Shown: positions 37,212-60,677 of the stretch, piece by piece
Layout: the number at the start of each line of letters is the position of its first letter
Position numbering within the stretch: the first letter of the stretch is position 1
Source of the DNA: Siphonodentalium dalli
Taxonomy: Eukaryota; Mollusca; Scaphopoda; Gadilida; Siphonodentaliidae
DNA: 64,000 nt
NCBI GenBank assembly: GCA_032622095.1
Contig: CP136061.1
Coordinates: forward strand, 260,804,077 to 260,868,076
Reading direction: 5' to 3'
Notes under the pieces: generated by a model
What the model was told of the DNA's origin: nothing
Databases searched by the model: none
Seen by the model: only the letters and a program-made list of their open reading frames with translations
Made by a program: the position numbers and the translations under genes

Positions 37212-40200
37212 AATACGCTCATAGTCGAGATATACTGTGGAATAGGTATATAATGTGATTATTTCATTCTAAGATACGCTAATAGTCGAGATATACTGTG
37301 GAATAGGTATATAATGTGATTATTTCATTCTAAGATACGCTCATAGTCAAGTGTGGAATAGGTATATAATGTGATTATTTCATTCTGAGATACGCTCATA
37401 GTCGAGATATACTGTGCAATAGGTATATAATGTGATTATTTCATTCTGAGATACGCTCATAGTCGAGATATACTGTGGAATAGGTATATAATGTGATTAT
37501 TTCATTCTGAGATACGCTCATAGTCGAGATATACTGTGGAATAGGTATATAATGTGATTATTTCATTCTGAGATACGCTCATAGTCGATATATACTGTGG
37601 AATAGGTATATAATGTGATTATTTCATTCTGAGATACGCTCATAGTCGAGATATACTGTGGAATAGGTATATAATGTGATTATTTCATTCTGAGATACGC
37701 TCATAGTCGAGATATACTGTGGAATAGTTATATAATGTGATTATTTCATTCTGAGATACGCTCATAGTCGAGATATACTGTGGAATAGGTATATAATGTG
37801 ATTATTTCATTCTGAGATACGCTCATAGTCGAGATATACTGTGGAATAGGTAGATAATGTGATTATTTCATTCTGAGATACGCTCATAGTCGAGATATAC
37901 TGTGGAATAGGTATATAATGTGATTATTTCATTCTGAGATACGCTCATAGTCGAGATATACTGTGGAATAGGTATATAATGTGATTATTTCATTCTGAGA
38001 TACGCTCATAGTCGAGATATACTGTGGAATAGGTATGTAATGTGATTATTTCATTCTGAGATACGCTCATAGTCGAGATATACTGTGGAATATGTATGTA
38101 ATGTGATTATTTCATTCTGAGATACGCTCATAGTCGAGATATACTGTGGAATAGGTATATAATGTGATTATTTCATTCTGAGATACGCTCATAGTCGAGA
38201 TATACTGTGGAATAGGTATATAATGTGATTATTTCATTCTGAAATACGCTCATAGTCGAGATATACTGTGGAATAGGTATATAATGTGATTATTTCATTC
38301 TGAGATACGCTCATAGTCGAGATATACTGTGGAATAGGTATATAATGTGATTATTTCATTCTGAGATACGCTCATAGTCGAGATATACTGTGGAATAGGT
38401 ATATAATGTGATTATTTCATTCTGAGATACGCTCATAGTCGAGATATACTGTGGAATAGGTATATAATGTGATTATTTCATTCTGAGATACGCTCATAGT
38501 CGAGATATACTGTGGAATAGGTATATAATGTGATTATTTCATTCTGAGATACGCTCATAGTCGATATATACTGTGGAATAGGTATATAATGTGATTATTT
38601 CATTCTGAGATACGCTCATAGTCGATATATACTGTGGAATAGGTATATAATGTGATTATTTCATTCTGAGATACGCTCATAGTCGAGATATACTGTGGAA
38701 TAGGTATATAATGTGATTATTTCATTCTAAGATACGATCATAGTCGAGATATACTGTGGAATAGGTATATATTGTGATTATTTCATTCTAAGATACGCTC
38801 ATAGTCGAGATATACTGTGGAATAGGTATATAATGTGATTATTTCATTCTGAGATACGCTCATAGTCGAGATATACTGTGGAATAGGTATATAATGTGAT
38901 TATTTCATTCTGAGATACGCTCATAGTCGAGATATACTGTGGAGTAGGTATATAATGTGATTATTTCATTCTGATATACGCTCATAGTCGAGATATACTG
39001 TGGAATAGGTATATAATGTGATTATTTTATTCTGAGATACGCTCATAATCGAGATATACTGTGGAATAGGTATATAATGTGATTATTTCATTCTAAGATA
39101 CGCTCAAAGTCGAGATATACTGTGGATTAGGTATATAATGTGATTATTTCATTCTAAGATACGCTCATAGTCGAGATATACTGTGGAATAGGTATATAAT
39201 GTGATTATTTCATTCTGAGATACGCTCATAGTCGAGATATACTGTGGAATAGGTATATAATGTTATTATTTCATTCTAAGATACGCTCATAGTCGAGATA
39301 TACTGTGGAATAGGTATATAATGTGATTATTTCATTCTGAGTTACGCTCATAGTCGAGATATACTGTGGAATAGGTATATAATGTGATTATTTCATTCTG
39401 AGATACACTCATAGTCGAGATATACTGTGGAATAGGTATATAATGTGATTATTTCATTCTGAGATACGCTCATAGTCGAGATATACTGTGGAATAGGTAT
39501 ATAATGTGATTATTTCATTCTAAGATACGCTCATAGTCGAGATATACTGTGGAATAGGTATATATTGTGATTATTTCATTCTAAGATACGCTCATAGTCG
39601 AGATATACTGTGGAATAGGTGTATAATGTGATTATTTCATTCTGAGATACGCTCATAGTCGAGATATACTGTGGAATAGGTATATAATGTGATTATTTCA
39701 TTCTGAGATACGCTCATAGTCGAGATATACTGTGGAGTAGATATATAATGTGATTATTTCATTCTGAGATACGCTCATAGTCGAGATATACTGTGGAATA
39801 GGTATATAATGTGATTATTTTATTCTGAGATACGCTCATAATCGAGATATACTGTGGAATAGGTATATAATGTGATTATTTCATTCTGAGATACGCTCAT
39901 AGTCGAGATATACTGTGGAATAGGTATATAATGTGATTATTTCATTCTAAGATACGCTCATAGTCGAGATATACTGTGGAATAGGTATATAATGTGATTA
40001 TTTCATTATGAGATACGCTCATAGTCGAGATATACTGTGGAATAGGTATATAATGTTATTATTTCATTCTAAGATACGCTCATAGTCGAGATATACTGTG
40101 GAATATGTATATAATGTGATTATGTCATTCTAAGATACGCTCATAGTCGAGATATACTGTGTAATAGGTATATAATGTGATTATTTCATTCTAAGATACG

Positions 40201-40507
40201 CTCATAGTCGAGATATACTGTGGAATAGCTATATAATGTGATTATTTCATTCTGAGATACGCTCATAGTCGAGATATACTGTGGAATAGGTATATAATGT
40301 TATTATTTCATTCTAAGATACGCTCATAGTCGAGATATACTGTGGAATATGTATATAATGTGATTATTTCATTCTAAGATACGCTCATAGTCGAGATATA
40401 CTGTGTAATAGGTATATAATGTGATTATTTCATTCTAAGATACGCTCATAGTCGAGATATACTGTGGAATAGGTATATAATGTGATTATTTCATTCTGAG
40501 GTACGCA
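37212..40507 (+). repeat. 61 bp satellite, about 54 monomers, with higher-order structure
   Basis: The monomer is GAGATACGCTCATAGTCGAG, then ATATACTGTGGAATAGGTAT, then ATAATGTGATTATTTCATTCT (61 bp). One monomer (near 37342) lacks about 10 bp. Rare variants recur at exactly 793 bp = 13 x 61: GGAGTAG (38941, 39734), ATATTGTG (38771, 39564), CATAATCGAG (39048, 39841) and TGTTATT (39261, 40054). A further 244 bp = 4 x 61 repeat links 40054 with 40298. The array lies in the intron before the lectin exons. Confidence 0.96.
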
Positions 40508-43007: not shown

Positions 43008-43238
43008 AAGGACTTTTGTCGCAGTTGACAAACGTTGCACTAAACAAACAGTCGTGGCAGTCCTCACCAACCGCAAACAATGCAGCCAGGGCCGTCGATG
43101 GAAACACAAGCCCATTGATCAGCTCCGGATCTTGCACAGATACGGACATCGAGATAAACCCATGGTGGATCGTGGACCTAGGAGCAACCTTTACCATATA
43201 CAAAGGGCGGGTGGTCAATAACAAAGGGATTTGTTGCT
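43008..43238 (+). CDS. F-type lectin (FTP, F5/8C-like) domain, N-terminal exon
   Basis: The acceptor is TTGTTGTAG|AA and the donor TTGCT|GTAAGTT; 231 nt, phase 1-1. The frame reads LTNVALNKQSWQSS, then AARAVDGN, SCTDTD, NPWWIVDLGA and VVNNKGICC. This follows the fucolectin/F-type lectin order NVAxxKxAxQSS - AVDGN - SCTHT - PWWxVDLG - NRxDCC. The usual fucose-binding residues are changed: His of CTHT is Asp, and NRxD is NKGI. F-type lectins normally bind L-fucose in innate recognition; binding here may be lost or altered. The exon's last 15 nt and donor are the seed of the adjacent satellite. The upstream ATG at 43016 is internal and not a start. Confidence 0.85.
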
Positions 43239-45722
43239 GTAAGTTATGTTTATATATGGCGGGCTGGTGGTTAAGTGGTTTGTTATGGTGAGTTATGTTT
43301 ATATATGGCGGGCTGGTGGTTAAGTGGTTTGTTATGGTGAGTTATGTTTATATATGGCGGGCTGGTGGTTAAGTGGTTTGTTATGGTGAGTTATGTTTAT
43401 ATATGGTGGTCCAGTGGTTAATAGAGGGGAGTGTTGCTGTAAGTTATGTTTATATATGGCGGGCTGGTGGTTAAGTGGTTTGTTATGGTGAGTTATGTTT
43501 GCATATCGTGGTCCAGTGGTTAATAGAGGGGAGTGTTGCTGCAAGTTATGTTTATATATGGCGGGCTGGTGGTTAAGTGATTTGTTATGGTGAGTTATGT
43601 TTATATATGGCGGGCTGGTGGTTAAGTGGTTTGTTATGGTGAGTTATGTTTATATATGGCGGGCTGGTGGTTAAGTGGTTTGTTATGGTGAGTTATGTTT
43701 GCATATCGTGGTCCAGTGGTTAATAGAGGGGAGTGTTGCTGTGAGTTATGTTTATATATGGCGGGCTGGTGGTTAAGTGGTTTGTTATGGTGAGTTATGT
43801 TGGCATATCGTGGTCCAGTGGTTAATAGAGGGGAGTGTTGCTGTGAGTTATGTTTATATATGGCGGGCTGGTGGTTAAGTGGTTTGTTATGGTGAGTTAT
43901 GTTGGCATATCGTGGTCCAGTGGTTAATAGAGGGGAGTGTTGCTGTGAGTTATGTTTATATATGGCGGGCTGGTGGTTAAGTGGTTTGTTATGGTGAGTT
44001 ATGTTTATATATCGTGGTCCAGTGGTTAATAGAGGGGAGTGTTGCTGTAAGTTATGTTTATATATGGCGGGCTGGTGGTTAAGTGATCTGTTATGGTAAG
44101 TTATGTTTGCATATCGTGGTCCAGTGGTTAATAGAGGGGAGGGTTGCTGTGAGTTATGTTTATATAAGGCGGGCTGGTGGTTAAGTGGTTTGTTATGGTA
44201 AGTTATGTTTATATATGGCGGGTTGGTGGTTAAGTGGTTTGTTATGGTGAGTTATGTTTGCATATCGTGGTCCAGTGGTTAATAGAGGGGAGTGTTGCTG
44301 TGAGTTATGTTTATATATGGCGGGCTGGTGGTTAAGTGGTTTGTTATGGTGAGTTATGTTTATATATGGCGGGCTGGTGGTTAAGTGGTTTGTTATGGTG
44401 AGTTATGTTTATATATGGCGGGCTGGTGGTTAAGTGGTTTGTTATGGTGAGTTATGTTTGCATATCGTGGTCCAGTGGTTAATAGAGGGGAGTGTTGCTG
44501 TGAGTTATGTTTATATATGGCGGGCTGGTGGTTAAGTGGTTTGTTATGGTGAGTTATGTTTGCATATCGTGGTCCAGTGGTTAATAGAGGGGAGTGTTGC
44601 TGTGAGTTATGTTTATATATGGCGGGCTGGTGGTTAAGTGGTTTGTTATGGTGAGTTATGTTTGCATATCGTGGTCCAGTGGTTAATAGAGGGGAGTGTT
44701 GCTGTAAGTTATGTTTATATATGGCGGGCTGGTGGTTAAGTGATTTGTTATGGTGAGTTATGTTTGCATATCGTGGTCCAGTGGTTAATAGAGGGGAGTG
44801 TTGCTGTGAGTTATGTTTATATATGGCGGGCTGGTGGTTAAGTGGTTTGTTATGGTGAGTTATGTTTGCATATCGTGGTCCAGTGGTTAATAGAGGGGAG
44901 GGTTGCTGTGAGTTATGTTTATATATGGCGGGCTGGCGGTTAAGTGGTTTGTTATGGTGAGTTATGTTTGCATATCGTGGTCCAGTGGTTAATAGAGGGG
45001 AGGGTTGCTGTGAGTTATGTTTATATATGGCGGGTTGGTGGTTAAGTGGTTTGTTATGGTGAGTTATGTTTATATATGGCGGGCTGGTGGTTAAGTGGTT
45101 TGTTATGGTGAGTTATGTTTACATATCGTGGTCCAGTGGTTAATAGAGGGGAGTGTTGCTGTAAGTTATGTTTATATATGGCGGGCTGGTGGTTAAGTGG
45201 TTTGTTATGGTGAGTTATGTTTATATATGGCGGGCTGGTGGTTAAGTGGTTTGTTATGGTGAGTTATGTTTATATATGGCGGGCTGGTGGTTAAGTGGTT
45301 TGTTATGGTGAGTTATGTTTGCATATCGTGGTCCAGTGGTTAATAGAGGGGAGGGTTGCTGTAAGTTATGTTTATATATGGCGGGCTGGTGGTTAAGTGG
45401 TTTGTTATGGTGAGTTATGTTTATATATGGCGGGCTGGTGGTTAAGTGATTTTTTATGGTGAGTTATGTTTGCATATCGTGGTCCAGTGGTTAATAGAGG
45501 GGAGTGTTGCTGTGAGTTATGTTTATATATGGCGGGCTGGTGGTTAAGTGGTTTGTTATGGTGAGTTATGTTTACATATCGTGGTCCAGTGGTTAATAGA
45601 GGGGAGTGTTGCTGTAAGTTATGTTTATATATGGCGGGCTGGTGGTTAAGTGGTTTGTTATGGTGAGTTATGTTTGCATATCGTGGTCCAGTGGTTAATA
45701 GAGGGGAGTGTTGCTGTGAGTT
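43239..45722 (+). repeat. Splice-donor satellite: 49/53 bp monomers, about 49 copies
   Basis: There are two related monomers. A (49 bp) is GAGTTATGTTTATATATGGC, then GGGCTGGTGGTTAAGTGG, then TTTGTTATGGT. B (53 bp) is GAGTTATGTTTGCATATCGT, then GGTCCAGTGGTTAATAGAGG, then GGAGTGTTGCTGT. Each junction reads TATG|GTGAGTTATG or TTGCT|GTGAGTTATG or TTGCT|GTAAGTTATG, i.e. a good 5' splice site in the gene's direction. The first monomer starts at the true donor of the lectin exon. The end of B (GGGAGTGTTGCT) resembles the exon end (GGGATTTGTTGCT). A and B alternate irregularly (AB, AAB, AAAB). Confidence 0.95.
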
Positions 45723-47231
45723 ATATTTACTTGTTTTGTGTTTTGAGCTTGATCTAAACTCCTAATGAAGTTAGTACTACAGTAAATGACTGTTAGAAAG
45801 TGTGGAGACGTAAATTGCTCACGAACCCAGGATTAGTGGGGACGAAGCGTTGCAGAGTGCCACTTGACACACACTTTTCCATGTGTTTGTGAAAGTTGAA
45901 TTCTTATTAGCGATATTATACATAAATGGAAGAGTCTTTACATAACATTCGTTTCGCAGTATTCAGGGTCAGCATTTTCATTTAATAATGCTACAAGTAT
46001 TCCTTTCTAAATGGCATTCCCATGACGACACAGTCGCCCCTTGATGACAGTAGTTAGACCTCCTTGTCGCGGTTGTCGAGAACGGAGTGTCCCCCGAAGA
46101 GCGCAGTAAATCTCAATGTATCCCGAGGAGAAGTGCAACAACTGTTTTGTTATCAGATTACTAAATAAATCAATCATTGTCATTCATAATTACAATGTTG
46201 TACTGAGAGATTATGTATAGTTTCATTAACTCCATTTCGTCCTAGGATTTCTGTTCCATAAAAGCCATTACGCTTTTAATAATCAGGTCTTCAATATCGG
46301 TCCTTGCAATGTAAACCAATAAGCCATAGAAACACGTTATCCCTTATACTATTGGACAGATTCAATGTCGCCTTGTGCGCGCAATTTACACGCGATGTTA
46401 ATTTCGGGCTTACGAAAGGCTTTTGGAAAGTTGTGGACTTCATTAAGGTATATCCACAGAATTATGTCACTACTCCCATGTACATCCCCAAACAAAATAA
46501 TTATATGGTGGAATAATAATAACAATGCAGACACCGCTGAGAGGTCTGCTATGAGGGATAAGCGTACAGGATAATTCATTCACGACAAACGTATGTATTA
46601 CGTTGTATGTACACCATCAAGTAACTAACCGAACTCAAGGGATCGACTTAGTGCAACACTGATTTCGAATCATTTTTGTGAAATATAATTTCATATTCTC
46701 CCTCTTTTGTCGAATTCACAAAAGGGCTATATTCATATTGAAGTTATACGTTAAATATTAATATAATAGATTAATTCAGAACCAGATTAACGTTCATGCG
46801 GAGAGTGATATTCACAATAGCACACTCATGATTGTAATTACAGGCGTTCGTAAATAAAATATATGCTCTGCCTTGTTTGTTCAACGTTATAAAGTACCCT
46901 GTCGGAACAGGTCAGAAGTTCCCAAATTTTGTACTGGTGGAATATGATCTCCACGGGTGTTACTGGAGAAGAGATTCATGACACGATATAACAGCTTGGT
47001 TACGACAAACACCACACTATTGTATATTGTCTTCAATATTAAAATATAACTGTACTATTGATTTCAGTACCATTGTCACAGAGGGGAATATAGCTTGGAC
47101 GCAAATAGTCGTACCCATGCACATCTTTATTTCCGATTATAAACAAACGTGAAGTAAACACACACTAAGCCCAGGCGGGCTAACATCGCCACACCTGGGC
47201 CAGAAAAATACGAGCATATGGTTGTTAAATA
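45723..47231. other. Intron stretch
   Basis: No gene or strong repeat was recognised. Frames at 46304-46579 on both strands lack recognisable domains. Confidence 0.4.
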
Positions 47232-47609
47232 TTAACCCTTTACCCAACAAAGCGGCCAAAAACGCCCAAATAAAGCTTCAACGGCCTAAAATATCTTTGG
47301 TCTGTCTCAATAACACCATACAAATATGGATATCATTGGAACCGGTTCATTGAACACATTGTGATGGTTACAGTTATGCCCTGTGCCAATGCATTATCTT
47401 ATATATGCGAGTCGACAATAGGTCGCCTCGCATATATAAGAGAATGCATTGGCCTACATTCTTTAACAATTTTAGAATTTTTTCTTACATTTTTTAACAA
47501 TTTTTATAATATTTTTCTACATTCTTGGACAATTTTATCATTTTTAATATGTGTGAAGCCAATGCATTCTCTTATATATGCGAGGCCGTTCTGTTGGGTA
47601 AAGGGTTAA
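47232..47609 (+). mobile_element. piggyBac-type MITE, copy 4 (right hairpin deleted)
   Basis: Both TTAA ends and the left hairpin (47387-47453) are present. The second hairpin is cut short (TTATATATGCGAGGC runs directly into CGTTCTGTTGGG). It lies in the intron that splits the lectin domain. Confidence 0.8.
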
Positions 47610-48300
47610 AAGGTATCATTCGCAAGTCTCTCCTCTCCAATCCAAAAGTTCCCTCTCTCAGTGTGTAACTCCCCTTCTGACCAATTTGGTTCGTGTTTTA
47701 AACCAATTACTCAAAAGGTGATTATACAGAATTGCTTATCGCCAATTAGACATGGATATTCGGGTAACAAGTCAATTATCTCGATAGCATCCCCTGTTTA
47801 CCAAATATATTATCTCTTGTTTCATATTTTTATAATTGTCATCGAGTCAGAATACATATTCATGTGCAATTCTACATGCACGCATAATCCACTAAAAGCT
47901 AATACTCATGACAGTATTCACACGTGCAGTGTTGCTATATGCTGCACGCTTTACATTACACAAGCTGTTTATCATTTGGAATTTGGAATAAAATGACCAC
48001 CGGGTGTCACTGTGTGACTGTGACGTGGTGTATCTCAATGTGCAATTATACTCAGCATTCATAATCCATTAAATTCAAATAATCCCCAGCAAGCCATATC
48101 GGACTTTCATTATTCACAGGTGGTAATTAGTTGTGTCTGTGTGTAATGTCGTATATGCTGATAGGGTTGGCATTACATAAATCACATATTAGTTAGTATA
48201 ACATTGCAACTGACATTTGCGTTCCAAGAAGAAATTAATTATGCCCTGCTGATATAACTTTGTGACACCAATATTATAAGCAACTGTGTTACAATTTTAG
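47610..48300. other. Intron before the last lectin exon
   Basis: No gene is recognised. It ends in GTGTTACAATTTTAG, the 3' splice site at 48300. Confidence 0.45.
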
Positions 48301-48530
48301 GGCGTCAGCTGCGTAATTTCACAGTCGATGTTTCGGCGACAATGGCGAGCCAGACAGACATGAGTGGATTCTCACAGAGGTGTTTCTACTTCCCCGGGGA
48401 CGCGTCACAAGGTCAATCGATCCAATTCGTTTGTTCGTCCACAACCGTCGGTCGATATGTTCGCGTGCAAATCTGGGATGCTTTGGCTCGGCTCTATATC
48501 TGCGAGGTGCAGATCTATGGCATCGAGTAG
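48301..48530 (+). CDS. F-type lectin domain, C-terminal exon with stop
   Basis: The acceptor is ACAATTTTAG|GG, phase 1, and it joins the previous exon as T|GG (Trp). The frame reads RQLRNFTVDVSATM, then RCFYFPGD, IQFVC and GRYVRVQIWDA, then LYICEVQIYGIE and TAG at 48528. GRYVRVQ...LxxCEVxxYG is the diagnostic end of F-type lectin domains. 230 nt = 2 + 76 codons including stop, so the frame closes exactly. The protein ends right after the domain, with no membrane anchor, so it is secreted. No canonical AATAAA was seen in the following 200 bp. Confidence 0.87.
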
Positions 48531-48995: not shown

Positions 48996-49859
48996 TGCAT
49001 GTTATTAGCTGGATTAGTGAAGTACAACGACCAGATCTGACATCTCTGAATGGATGAGTAACATGTCAATCAAGACATCTGACCAGCAGTGGATAGGGCG
49101 GTACAACGACCGGATCGTCGACACTTCATGGCTGGATGACGACATTAATATTCATAAGTAAGCTGATGGACGTAGTACAACTGGGCTGTATAGAGACCTG
49201 GCATTTACCTGAGCATTACCAACAGGCGGACTAGATTGTAACTTACACTGTGAGCATGATAAATACAACACCCAAATCCATATGAGTTGACCAGCCTGAC
49301 AAGAGTAGAGACCAGTATACAATGCTATGATTTATTTACAATGACCAGAATAATATTGTATATTTAAAGCTATGACAACAATATGAACAATCTGTATGAA
49401 CTATATTACGGGAATAAGTATTCCATAAAGCAGGGACGAATACTCGTAAATTACTTCTATTGGTTCGATTATTAATATGACTGAAACCGCATATAATATA
49501 GTAATTGAGCTACCTGTGAGGAATAATAATATGACCTGGATAAACCTGTTATGTATGTCTGATCGTGGAATGGTACTGCAGCATCTACTGATAAAGTATG
49601 GACGTGGTACGTGTACTGGATGCATAGTGTGCATGTGGGCTGACCTGCAACCTGGGCCTCAACCAAGTGCGGACATCCATGTGTCACCAGGCAGCACTGG
49701 AAATGGTTCACCTGGGATGGGCGTAATACCGAGCATCGGCAAAGCAATCGACCAAGTTGTGATGAGTGGTTGTATTGTTGGTTCTGTCTTGATATGCACT
49801 GTACCAGGTATGCATATGGATTGGGACTGTCTGATTGTTACATCTGCCATGATCAGACC

Positions 49860-50111
49860 GAAGTGGTCTATACATTTTCCCGGATATACTATTTATCAAT
49901 AATCTATGCCACAAATAATTGATATTTATCGCTTGAAAAGCTTTTTCAAAGTCTATAAATACACAGAACATCTTACGTTTTTTCAGCCTACATAGTTCGG
50001 TAACAATAGAAATAAGAAATGTGTTATCAACAGTAGAGTAGTCCTTCGTGAATCCACATTGCTTATCGTGTAGCAATCCACATGTGTCAGAATATATGCT
50101 AACTCGGTTAC
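49860..50111 (-). pseudogene. LINE-C reverse transcriptase, C-terminal half of the fragment
   Basis: On the minus strand the frame reads NRVSIYSDTCGLLHDKQCGF, then STVDN and FCVFIDFEKAFQ, then LWHRLL and GKMYR. HxxQxGFxxxxSTxDN and the FxDxxKAF motif (RT motif A, with the catalytic Asp) are standard non-LTR reverse transcriptase features. The frame ends after this; the YxDD region is not present, so the copy is truncated. It continues to the right across a 1 kb insertion. Confidence 0.82.
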
Positions 50112-51100
50112 CGAGGACAGATGAGAACTAGAATGCACTCAGGGAGATGCCAACGTGCGCAAAAATGTAATAAACAATAATTTAAAAAATAATTTTACTT
50201 AATTTATTTTATTTAATTTAATGTTAGCAAAAAAGACAATTACCATTTCTCATTTCATCACAGATAAAAGGCAAATTACTATATTAATCATTTAAGTAAT
50301 TAAAACCAATTCCATGTTGCCGAAAGGATGAGACTTTAATATCGATTACATTTTTTTCAGCGGCATATTTTCATTTTCCGATAGTCAAAGTTGACCAAAG
50401 GATAAATTATAAGAAATAATTAATATTATTTGTGTAAATATTGATAGCAGCCAATATGCAACAATAAATCAATAATTAATCAATAACGATCATTTTATGT
50501 AATAATAAACTCTTCAAACGGTGTTTGTGTCAACAAATGCGTTTTGTTTTGTGTTACGTCATTCGTCGTATTTGACCCGGAACTCGGCTGAAGGTTAGGC
50601 TATTCAGCATATTGCGTCGAATTACGAAATCGCGTTTTGAATGTCTCTCTTTGCTCGCACGATAAAAAGAGGTCTTCGCACGAACCAAAAATGATAAAAC
50701 TTCCCAATTATAAGTAAAAATACCCAAATGAAGGAGTCTATGTAGGTCCCGAAGGAGTCTATAGACTCTTTGATGTAGAGTTCTGATGGAGAAAATGTAG
50801 GTCGATCTATTTTTGTCATAACTCTGACGTATTTTGACCTGGGGAAAAAATCGAAATCGGAGCTCACTACGAGCATGTCAGTTTTAAATATAGAAACAGA
50901 GAATCCCGACAAATGGCGATATCGGCAACAAACAAATAATCGATAACGACACATAAAATAAACATAGCAAAAACGCGGCACGGTAAAAATGTCAGAACGC
51001 CACGAGGTTTTACGTCGTTTTTGGTGACGTCATGGAGTGAAACGGAGTAGGGTGACACCAACCTACGAATCTGTCTGATCGCCATACTGTTGCGCGAGCG
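50112..51100. mobile_element. Approx. 1 kb insertion splitting LINE-C
   Basis: The LINE-C protein stops at ...FSKLIT on the right side and resumes with NRVSIYSD on the left. These are neighbours in related proteins with only about three residues between. The intervening sequence is very AT-rich at 50150-50520, then holds open minus-strand frames (50622-50981, 50867-51103) without recognised domains. End sequences and target duplication could not be defined. Confidence 0.55.
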
Positions 51101-55823: not shown

Positions 55824-56296
55824 TGTAGAGTAATGATCCCGGATACATACTAAACATAGCTATCTTAACCGATGGGGGGAGACTGGAATATAATCGAACT
55901 ATAAGTGACCCCAACCAAATTGCCAAGGTCATACTCGGAGAGGCCGCGACCTATGAGTTATGCAATACTAGCCACAAAGGAAAGAAGTTCTTATGTAATA
56001 ATTCCCAGTTCACCCATGGGTCAGTACAGACAAAGAGATGCACTAATGACGGCTACCAGTCATTAGCGATATATAAACCAGACATTAATCTACTCTTCAA
56101 TTAGTTTCGGACTTCAGACTAATTGGCAGGCATCAACATCAGGTCGCTAATTAATAAGCGACGCTTTCGGTCGTTCTATGACATCTATGATTGATTCACA
56201 ATTATGTATCATTTACCATCACAAGCTGTTGACCATCCATTGATATTAGATGTGAATAAATGATATACAAGAACCGACTTCATTCTTCCACATAGA
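55824..56296 (+). repeat. 5' LTR (473 bp)
   Basis: It starts TGTAGAGTAATGATCCCGG and ends TTCTTCCACATAGA. It contains GATATATAAACC (possible TATA box, about 56068) and AATAAATGATATAC (about 56255), a possible polyadenylation signal. No mismatch with the 3' LTR was seen. Confidence 0.9.
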
Positions 56297-56612: not shown

Positions 56613-57110
56613 TATGAAGATCGCAGCCAAAAGAAGATAACATAGACGAAAAAGAAGAAGAAAAGACGACATAAACATTTCCAGCATAATCCAAAGACAA
56701 GAACAAAATAGACAATTTGCACTCGACAGTTGTGACAGTCAGTTATTCATTGGATTCGGTGAGTCAAACTTTTTCATTTTTGCCAGATGTGCGTTTTCAC
56801 ACCTTGTTAGAGGCTTGATTATTAACACCCAATTCCACTCTAAAATTTTCGCGTGGTATGGCCCTTGCCCCCAAACAATTTTCAAATCAAACACATTTAA
56901 TTAACTTTCATGGAACCACCGCCACCCGAATCCGTAGAATATTCTAATCAAGATAGTATTTAATCGAACTTTCAATATGGAACGAGAATGCCACCTACAC
57001 GCGGCCAGTAATTCAAACATGCAAGACAAAAATATACCAAATCCCTCATTTCAAATGCCGAGCGCACAAGACACACAGAATACCTATTTCTCAATTTCGC
57101 ATCAGAAGCC

Positions 57111-58052
57111 ATGAATTTTCATGTCTCAGCAACGACTCAATTTTCTCCATATTTTTTAGCTTTCTGCAGACACCCCCAAATAAATATTGACAAGATACTG
57201 ACACCGCGACAGAAATACACGGGTGAATGCCTCATTCAACAGTTACTAGAGAAGCAGCACTTCGCATTTCAATTAGTTAAACAAAATATGAAACAAGTCA
57301 AGACGAAACGAAACGAAAACAGTAAAGGTAAAATACTGGAATTTCCCATAGGTTCCCAGGTCTATGTTAAGAATCACAGACAAACCCATAAACTAGGTAT
57401 GAAATATGATCTATTTTGGGTGATACTTAAACAAACAGGACCAGTTTCATATGTGATTCGTAATCAAATTACAGGCAGTTTATCTAAAAGTCATGCCAAA
57501 CATTTAAAATTAGCGACGACTAAATGGCATACACCACAATTACAGGAGAACCAGAAAGTTCGAAAAAGCAGATTTGTATTCCCACATAAGTCATCAACAC
57601 AAAGCTCCGATGCTGACATATCGAGTAATAGCAACAATTCGGACACCGAAAATGAGAACCACGATACAGCCCCTTTAACACAGTTAATACGACAAAACCG
57701 CGTCATCCGGGACGGATCGGATTCAAATGAACCAGTGCCCCTACCAGAGATGGCACATAAGTTGATAGCATCAAAGCGCGAACATGAAAAACAATCATTT
57801 TCATCAACCGAACCATATAACCCTTATGATATGCTAACGCAAAACGATGAAGCAAAAATGTACAATGCAAGTTCATCAACCGAGCCATACAATCCGTATG
57901 ACATGTCAACCCAACAATTAGTACAACAAAACAAGCGTAAAAGCAAGTCCAGTTGCGACACATATAACATGTCAACCGAAAATTATGATCCTTTCGATAT
58001 AACCACTCAAACCGACAAAAATAGCACAGACGAACAGAGCATGTCGATATAG
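57111..58052 (+). CDS. Integrase C-terminal region of a gypsy-type Pol (fragment)
   Basis: The N-terminal part reads NFHVSATTQFSPYFLAF and CRHPQINID, the end of the integrase catalytic core (TxxSPYxLxFGRxP). A GPVSYVIRN...HAKHLK block (residues about 105-135) is the usual chromatin-side C-terminal domain of Ty3/gypsy integrases. The HHCC zinc domain and most DDE residues are missing upstream, because the frame begins at the core's end. The tail (residues 150-313) is low-complexity and holds three repeats of a TEPYNPYDMSTQ-like peptide. The ATG at 57111 is probably not a native start; the frame stays open about 60 bp upstream. Confidence 0.75.
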   Translation: MNFHVSATTQFSPYFLAFCRHPQINIDKILTPRQKYTGECLIQQLLEKQHFAFQLVKQNMKQVKTKRNENSKGKILEFPIGSQVYVKNHRQTHKLGMKYDLFWVILKQTGPVSYVIRNQITGSLSKSHAKHLKLATTKWHTPQLQENQKVRKSRFVFPHKSSTQSSDADISSNSNNSDTENENHDTAPLTQLIRQNRVIRDGSDSNEPVPLPEMAHKLIASKREHEKQSFSSTEPYNPYDMLTQNDEAKMYNASSSTEPYNPYDMSTQQLVQQNKRKSKSSCDTYNMSTENYDPFDITTQTDKNSTDEQSMSI

Positions 58053-60204: not shown

Positions 60205-60677
60205 TGTAGAGTAATGATCCCGGATACATACTAAACATAGCTATCTTAACCGATGGGGGGAGACTGGAATATAATCGAACTATAAGTGACCCCAACCAAA
60301 TTGCCAAGGTCATACTCGGAGAGGCCGCGACCTATGAGTTATGCAATACTAGCCACAAAGGAAAGAAGTTCTTATGTAATAATTCCCAGTTCACCCATGG
60401 GTCAGTACAGACAAAGAGATGCACTAATGACGGCTACCAGTCATTAGCGATATATAAACCAGACATTAATCTACTCTTCAATTAGTTTCGGACTTCAGAC
60501 TAATTGGCAGGCATCAACATCAGGTCGCTAATTAATAAGCGACGCTTTCGGTCGTTCTATGACATCTATGATTGATTCACAATTATGTATCATTTACCAT
60601 CACAAGCTGTTGACCATCCATTGATATTAGATGTGAATAAATGATATACAAGAACCGACTTCATTCTTCCACATAGA
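60205..60677 (+). repeat. 3' LTR (473 bp)
   Basis: Same sequence as 55824-56296 at every position I compared, followed by the ATATA target repeat. Confidence 0.9.

Follow-up and report, generated by a model that had tools for sequence, protein, structure and literature searches.

A tandem array of exon-end and 5' splice-site copies at an F-type lectin exon border in Siphonodentalium dalli

The locus described here is an F-type lectin gene within the window, by which we mean the whole 64,000-nucleotide stretch of Siphonodentalium dalli DNA that was analyzed. On paper the gene is complete, with an exon ending at 43238, an intron that bears a tandem array, and a second exon at 48301-48530. Its features are listed below (exon numbers are those of this analysis, and a slash marks an exon-intron boundary).

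43025-43238, forward strand: F-type lectin exon ("exon 1"), from PDB and PF22633 matches and a 3' border common to paralogs
43239-43247, forward strand: the gene's own 5' splice site, GCT/GTAAGTTAT, from the family's conserved donor place and U1 pairing
43239-45715, forward strand: array of 49 units (30 A, 19 B), each an intron start followed by an exon-end copy, from TRF, the junction list and alignment
43288-43336, forward strand: example A unit, whose end joins the start of the next unit as a stronger donor, ATG/GTGAGTTA, from the junction list and U1 pairing
43488-43540, forward strand: example B unit; past the first 7 bases it runs ATGTTTGCATATCGTGGTCCAGTGGTTAATAGAGGGGAGTGTTGCT, which translates as MFAYRGPVVNRGECC, an F-type lectin exon end, from the junction list and translation
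45716-48300, forward strand: last donor copy and the older intron, which aligns colinearly, starting at base 1, with that of the array-less paralog L100, from flank alignments
48301-48530, forward strand: exon 2, the C-terminal half of the lectin domain, with the stop codon at 48528-48530, from acceptor score and paralog matches

The translation of exon 1 had FBP32 as its best PDB match (7.2e-16), matched lectin 1k12, which we take to be the eel lectin, at 9.7e-9, and matched PF22633 at 1.5e-8, above the cut-off; by sequence it is an F-type lectin domain. The 5' border of this exon (cgcag/TTGACA) was placed by eye. The acceptor of exon 2, TTTTAG/GG, scored 9.1, which among 59 paralog acceptors is above the 25th percentile but below the median, and a protein search with exon 2 gave 135 matches in the same genome, itself counted. 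Splicing from the first donor would give ...GICCWRQLRNF... and read through to the stop codon. In a single comparison with the sister gene L010, dN/dS was 0.49 for exon 1 and 0.45 for exon 2 (198 and 228 bases, respectively), values that do not mark it as plainly dead. The fucose motif of F-type lectins is given as HX24RXDX4(R/K) (PMC5712786), and by eye this protein fails it, with D for H (SCTDT), NKGICC for NRGDCC, and Q at the last basic place. The product thus belongs to the domain family but is probably not a standard fucose binder.

Elsewhere in the window, TRF reports a second large array at 37213-40506, 2.5 kb ahead of the lectin exon, with 54 copies of a 61-bp unit and 96% matches. 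Open frames at 55829-56104 and 60210-60485 have an identical 91-residue translation and lie 4.4 kb apart, as a recent duplication or a repeat element. Judged by eye, 49708-50127 (minus strand) and 57012-58052 (plus strand) presumably hold pieces of a reverse transcriptase and an LTR-retrotransposon integrase.

The array follows directly after the last base of the lectin exon as head-to-tail units of two classes, A (n = 30, 49 bp) and B (n = 19, 53 bp), in mixed order, and TRF recovered it as well. An A+B pair measures 102 bases (34 codons). With the gene's own donor, the 49 copies make 50 donor-like junctions from 43239 to 45716, all in the sense direction; a preliminary description of the locus had counted about 49 sense-oriented donor copies after the lectin exon and was accurate in both respects. 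It had set the extent at 43208-45722, of which the end is right to within a few bases but the start falls in the copied exon end. GT is kept in 48 of the 49 copies and is GC in one (43541). By type, the 50 junctions are 28 ATG/GTGAGTTA, 12 GCT/GTGAGTTA, 7 GCT/GTAAGTTA (own donor included), 2 ATG/GTAAGTTA and 1 GCT/GCAAGTTA. Two open frames run antisense through the array (43634-44251 and 44393-45112, minus strand; 205 and 239 residues) and are probably meaningless. One 255-base piece of the array, folded as RNA in search of a hairpin, did no better than shuffles (z +1.0).

Read from the eighth base, the B unit is MFAYRGPVVNRGECC and the A unit starts MFIYGGLVV; the exon ends of two paralogs read AMFTIYGGLVVNRGGCC (L016) and AMFTIYTGRVVNNRGTCC (L010). 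Aligning the monomers to the exon end, a check that had been proposed at the outset, gave agreement with the gene's own exon end in 31 of 41 columns for A and 34 of 46 for B, and in neither case were any of 2000 shuffles as good. Against the L010 exon end, A agreed in 30 of 42 columns (9 of 2000 shuffles as good) and B in 37 of 46 (0 of 2000), and against that of L016, A agreed in 35 of 42 (0 of 2000) and B in 31 of 46 (2 of 2000). Each unit reproduces an F-type lectin exon border, taking in about 40 bases from the end of the exon and 7-15 from the start of the intron; where one part gives way to the other was judged by eye (34-48 exon bases, 7-15 intron bases). The architecture of the array and the origin of its unit from a lectin exon border are therefore plain at the level of sequence, and the copying of the exon end by B, earlier put at a dozen bases, extends to about 40.

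That the array is beyond chance was borne out when its unit was sought throughout the genome. A search of the 2.23 Gb with a 151-base piece of the array gave at least 47 matches, 47 of 47 at lectin loci: the window array, array-like stretches by other lectin exons, and three single lectin exon-intron borders (C7:152864622, C1:261073998, and C1:234575977), where the match crosses the junction (E 9e-8 to 4e-6). Another search with array DNA gave at least 81 matches, again all at lectin loci (81 of 81), and those outside arrays were exon-intron borders of other lectins, at C1:230623252, C1:230887895, C1:81027338, and C1:80974913. A dispersed satellite would have its unit at many unrelated loci; no spread beyond lectin loci was seen among the matches listed in these searches, so the term "satellite" used in the preliminary description overstates what the repeat is.

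A search of the genome with exon 1 gave 107 matches, the window included, and the borders of all 107 were inspected (12 as loci of about 3.2 kb, 94 as 980-base pieces, and one separately). A GT donor in the same phase (phase 1) lies near the match end in 107 of 107, with donor choice weighted to that phase; this, with the matching exon 2, upholds the exon border first proposed. Arrays were called where a TRF repeat with a period of 15 or more spanned the donor, which was the case for eight of the 107. The window gene (L009), L014, L019, L020, and L024 have one unit type of 49-55 bp, and other units are found in L026 (50 bp, 2.5 copies), L090 (23 bp, 2 copies), and L096 (66 bp, 9 copies, 97%). 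Copy number varies between lectin paralogs in this one assembly, with 3 downstream donor copies in L014, 3 in L020, 7 in L024, 8 more donors in L096, and 66 complete units in L019, 62 of them good. Because L026, L090, and L096 differ in unit length and edges, we infer at least four origins of donor-spanning arrays in the family.

Other repeats and changes were noted near these borders. L025, a near relative of L026, has by eye a second, diverged border copy that TRF missed. In L015 (C1:7561728), L027 (C1:7210351), and L088 (C1:8291265), repeats of 28-31 bp start 13-101 bases past the donor, and their unit resembles the intron head by eye (GCTAAA..GTCC..AAGG), another type of donor-side array. 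In the closely similar L014 and L020 (C1:80038171 and C1:80134986), the border Cys-Cys is now Ala-Ser or Gly-Ser in the exon, and the downstream array unit still has TGTTGT.

With the same TRF settings, none of 60 exon-2 acceptors lay within an array; besides that of the window gene, these comprised 59 acceptors drawn from the upper portion of the 135 exon-2 matches, four in that stretch being omitted (two with an internal stop, and C9:38620774 and C9:128542069). A preference of arrays for donors over acceptors was considered as a rule and is not established, the two-sided Fisher p being 0.052 for 8 of 107 donors vs. 0 of 60 acceptors, and 0.30 for 4 of 103 vs. 0 of 60 when counted by origin.

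To rank the donors, we used the in-register pairing energy with U1, for which the U1 sequence and the rule of pairing came from general knowledge and not from this species, and a reference of 98 lectin donors (median -8.4 kcal/mol). The gene's own donor pairs at -5.4 kcal/mol and is at least as strong as just 7% of the 98. The GCT-type copies are as weak (-5.4 to -5.5 kcal/mol, with the 12 GCT/GTGAG copies at -5.5), and the 30 ATG-type copies reach -9.1 to -9.2 kcal/mol, which equals or beats 64-68% of the reference. The GTRAGT junctions had been called strong U1 targets, a view that holds for these 30 but not for the GCT-type copies or the own donor. Since 30 of the 49 copies clearly outpair the own donor, use of the first donor is not predicted from U1 pairing alone. 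The median energy of lectin donors was reached by 30 sites in the array and none in the rest of the intron, and by an average of 11 sites (maximum 21) in 100 first-order simulated sequences of array composition. When the junctions were also scored with a position matrix of the 98 lectin donors, following the check proposed in the preliminary description, array sites fell at the 0-10th percentile and the own donor at the 8th, a result that speaks against "strong donors". We set the matrix aside in favor of U1 energies because its exon positions mirror the Cys codons.

The reading frame separates the donors sharply. Only donor 1 of the 50 is both open and in frame and gives a full lectin. Donor 2 is reached without a stop but shifts the frame, with a stop after 21 further residues, and all 48 later donors lie past a stop, as had been anticipated for the use of downstream donors. 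Because the second site alone is stop-free and is off-frame, the variable exon extension suggested earlier is unlikely to be useful in the window; on paper it is possible in L096 (C1:8333155-8334134, minus strand). There the 66-bp unit amounts to 22 codons, and the frame is kept, with no stop, through donors 1-7, so each added unit could give 22 residues. No later donor tested was open and in frame in L014, L019, L020, L024, L026, or L090 (first 900 bases at most). Within the window array, none of 155 AG sites reached the 5th percentile of lectin acceptors, and the units are thus unlikely to serve as cassette exons.

Donor strengths in the paralogs were varied. The other long array, L019, has an own donor at -7.4 and copies at about -11 kcal/mol, and the own donors of L014 (-11.3), L024 (-10.8), and L096 (-9.3 kcal/mol) are strong. 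A T as last exon base, giving the weak T/GTGAGT border, is common to L010-L013, which have no array beside those donors, so the array need not be what brought about the weak T. Selection on donor bases in the L019 array was proposed from a first count of about 13 times less variation (without +3) among units chosen by donor pattern, and was rejected in a recount of units chosen by their non-donor part (62 of 66 complete), where the donor six-mer ranked 15 of 55 windows. GT was kept in 56 of these 62 units.

Several observations bear on the age of the array. The window gene and its nearest paralogs, L010-L013, have an extra codon (VVNNRG, VVNNKG, VINNRG, or VVNTRG) that the B units are without, so B probably preserves an older form of the exon border. 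In L010 exon 1 is clean, and 9.4 kb further downstream come a partial exon copy and an array remnant of about two to three worn units, beside the same flank as the window array (77% identical to the post-array intron of the window over 227 bases). The array seems older than the present exon of the gene; growth out of the gene's own border, as first described, is right as to the border but apparently not as to the exon that now stands there. The partial exon copy, L021 (C1:261083450-261083603), is a second copy of the lectin exon that lies ahead of the L010 remnant, and the layout of L010 looks as if the gene had escaped its array through a new upstream exon.

Post-array flanks and the intron starts of array-less paralogs were compared in 66 pairs with 200 shuffles each. 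The window from its last donor aligns colinearly with the array-less L100 intron from its only donor, with 0 of 200 shuffles as good, a count shared by window-L010, window-L029, L010-L014, L010-L020, and L014-L100. One shuffle was as good for window-L014 and three for window-L020 (weak); the post-array flanks of L019 and L024 did not match that of the window beyond shuffles (72 and 93 of 200, respectively). In 16 of the 66 pairs no more than 2 of the 200 shuffles equaled the real alignment. Chance would account for about one such pair, and among those found L024-L011 matches no expectation. The window-L100, L014-L100, and L010-L014 alignments begin at the first base of the donor, and that of window-L029 begins 51 and 66 bases in, not at the donor. 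The sequence after the last donor is thus the old intron in the window, L010, and L014, and the units were inserted between intron and exon.

An exon tree of 13 sequences (12 paralogs and one outgroup) was poorly resolved, with 6 of 10 inner branches open, and array-bearing and array-less paralogs are intermixed on it (6 changes). No unit-like match at E 1e-3 was found past their own borders in the complete introns of L011, L016, L017, L018, L029, and L100. Given this mixture on an unresolved tree and the lack of remnants in these introns, a single birth with losses is not established, and repeated birth of arrays at the same spot is possible. Short exon/intron similarity at the unit edges (ATGTTTACC in the L010 exon and ATGTTTACA in the L010 flank, by eye) suggests that the array was founded by microhomology-driven duplication.

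We consider it probable that the array is a donor-spanning minisatellite of a lectin exon border, in which the first donor is normally used and the copies are mostly unused and neutral to mildly harmful. The border architecture with a like unit in L014, L020, L024, and L019, along with the L010 remnant, counts for this reading. The array would have arisen in an ancestor of several of the array-bearing paralogs, when a first duplication may have joined short similar ATGTTTAC-like stretches of exon and intron, and could have grown via unequal exchange or slippage. The spliceosome would normally pick the first, exon-joined donor, as that donor alone gives the lectin, and the downstream copies would be intronic U1 targets that mostly go unused. 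Any that were used would yield frameshifted or stopped mRNA, which would place the array between neutral and mildly harmful; the longer it is, the less correct mRNA may be made.

A bolder reading, which we hold to be doubtful, is a recurrent hot spot at the level of the family, located at the exon end of the sugar-site Cys-Cys loop, with at least four minisatellite births and with some arrays functional, whether as U1 landing pads for weak donors or, in L096, as an exon extension set by copy number (22-residue repeats in an immune lectin). We see only a small chance that the window array aids splicing, with donor 1 in use and the intronic U1 sites either defining an exon that has a weak donor or guarding a long intron from premature polyadenylation. 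Such a role would suit the combination of a weak own donor and 30 good U1 targets, and in each of the two longest arrays (window and L019) most copies are stronger than the own donor. Correction of exon skipping is described for a modified U1 that binds the intron 3' of the 5' splice site (PMC4822034), and suppression of polyadenylation by U1 is also reported (PMC3826338). The absence of special conservation at the L019 donor bases argues against it, as do the weak borders of L010-L013, which have no array beside the donor, and the strong own donors of L024 and L096, which have arrays nonetheless.

It is unlikely that the gene has become a pseudogene in decay, with the array as its debris. Key residues of the fucose motif are lost (K for R and I for D, by eye, on the motif of PMC5712786) and the weak own donor confronts stronger decoys, but both exons are open, the acceptor is ordinary, and dN/dS is 0.45-0.49. 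We give very little weight to an exon of tunable length, in which downstream donors are used and longer lectins result: the open, in-frame donors of L096 are what such an exon would look like, but in the window donors 1 and 2 alone precede a stop, with donor 2 off-frame, and the six other arrays tested have no suitable later donor in the stretch covered (900 bases at most). Tandem repeats are plentiful here (38 TRF rows in the window), but a mobile or dispersed satellite landed at the border by chance, or an assembly artefact, is highly improbable for a B unit that translates as a lectin exon end, with related arrays at the same border of other lectins and with A/B order and point variants that change along the array, unlike a simple assembly duplication.

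Work on how one 5' splice site is chosen from several near-identical ones usually relies on artificial minigenes with a few competing sites. The lectin family offers natural versions of one border with 1, 4, 8, 50, and more than 60 donors, including borders where many donors beat the true one in U1 pairing and one in-frame array, and so a test, set up by nature, of which splice site a cell uses when many copies are on offer. As we read it, the donor-spanning minisatellite also shows a route from exon border to minisatellite, and the intron keeps what appears to be an old version of the exon end (NRGECC in the B unit vs. NKGICC in the live exon).

In the human CBS gene, copies of a border repeat reportedly act as alternative donors. 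This 31-bp VNTR, c.1444_1467+7(16_21), consists of 24 exon-end and 7 intron-start bases in tandem at the border (PMC2630376), so the CBS donors are repeated too, and enzyme activity is reported to be lower where repeats are more numerous (PMC2630376, PMC5188458). The lectin array has the same layout, exon end plus intron start with its 5' splice site, head to tail at the border. It differs in having 49 copies of 49 or 53 bp in two unit types, against 16-21 copies of a 31-bp unit in the single gene CBS, and in belonging to a family with like arrays in several paralogs and different units in others. Internal tandem repeats in human segmental-duplication genes likewise vary among paralogs and may hit exon-intron borders and alter gene structure (PMC2812944), but as described there they are mostly longer coding repeats or new introns, whereas the lectin array repeats the donor itself. 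In Pacific oyster F-type lectin genes, intron repeats also adjoin exons and are proposed as drivers of duplication (PMC5712786); the repeats described there, GA/CT microsatellites and a retroposon, lie next to domain exons and do not copy an exon border. We found no report of a donor-spanning array in a lectin gene in the literature searched (titles and abstract openings, with subscription journals thinly covered). The layout itself is already known, human CBS, as described in these reports, being a precise precedent. What is new, within that literature, is the copy number, the decoys with better U1 pairing than the true site, and the presence across a family, together with the apparent repeated birth of such arrays, including the in-frame case.
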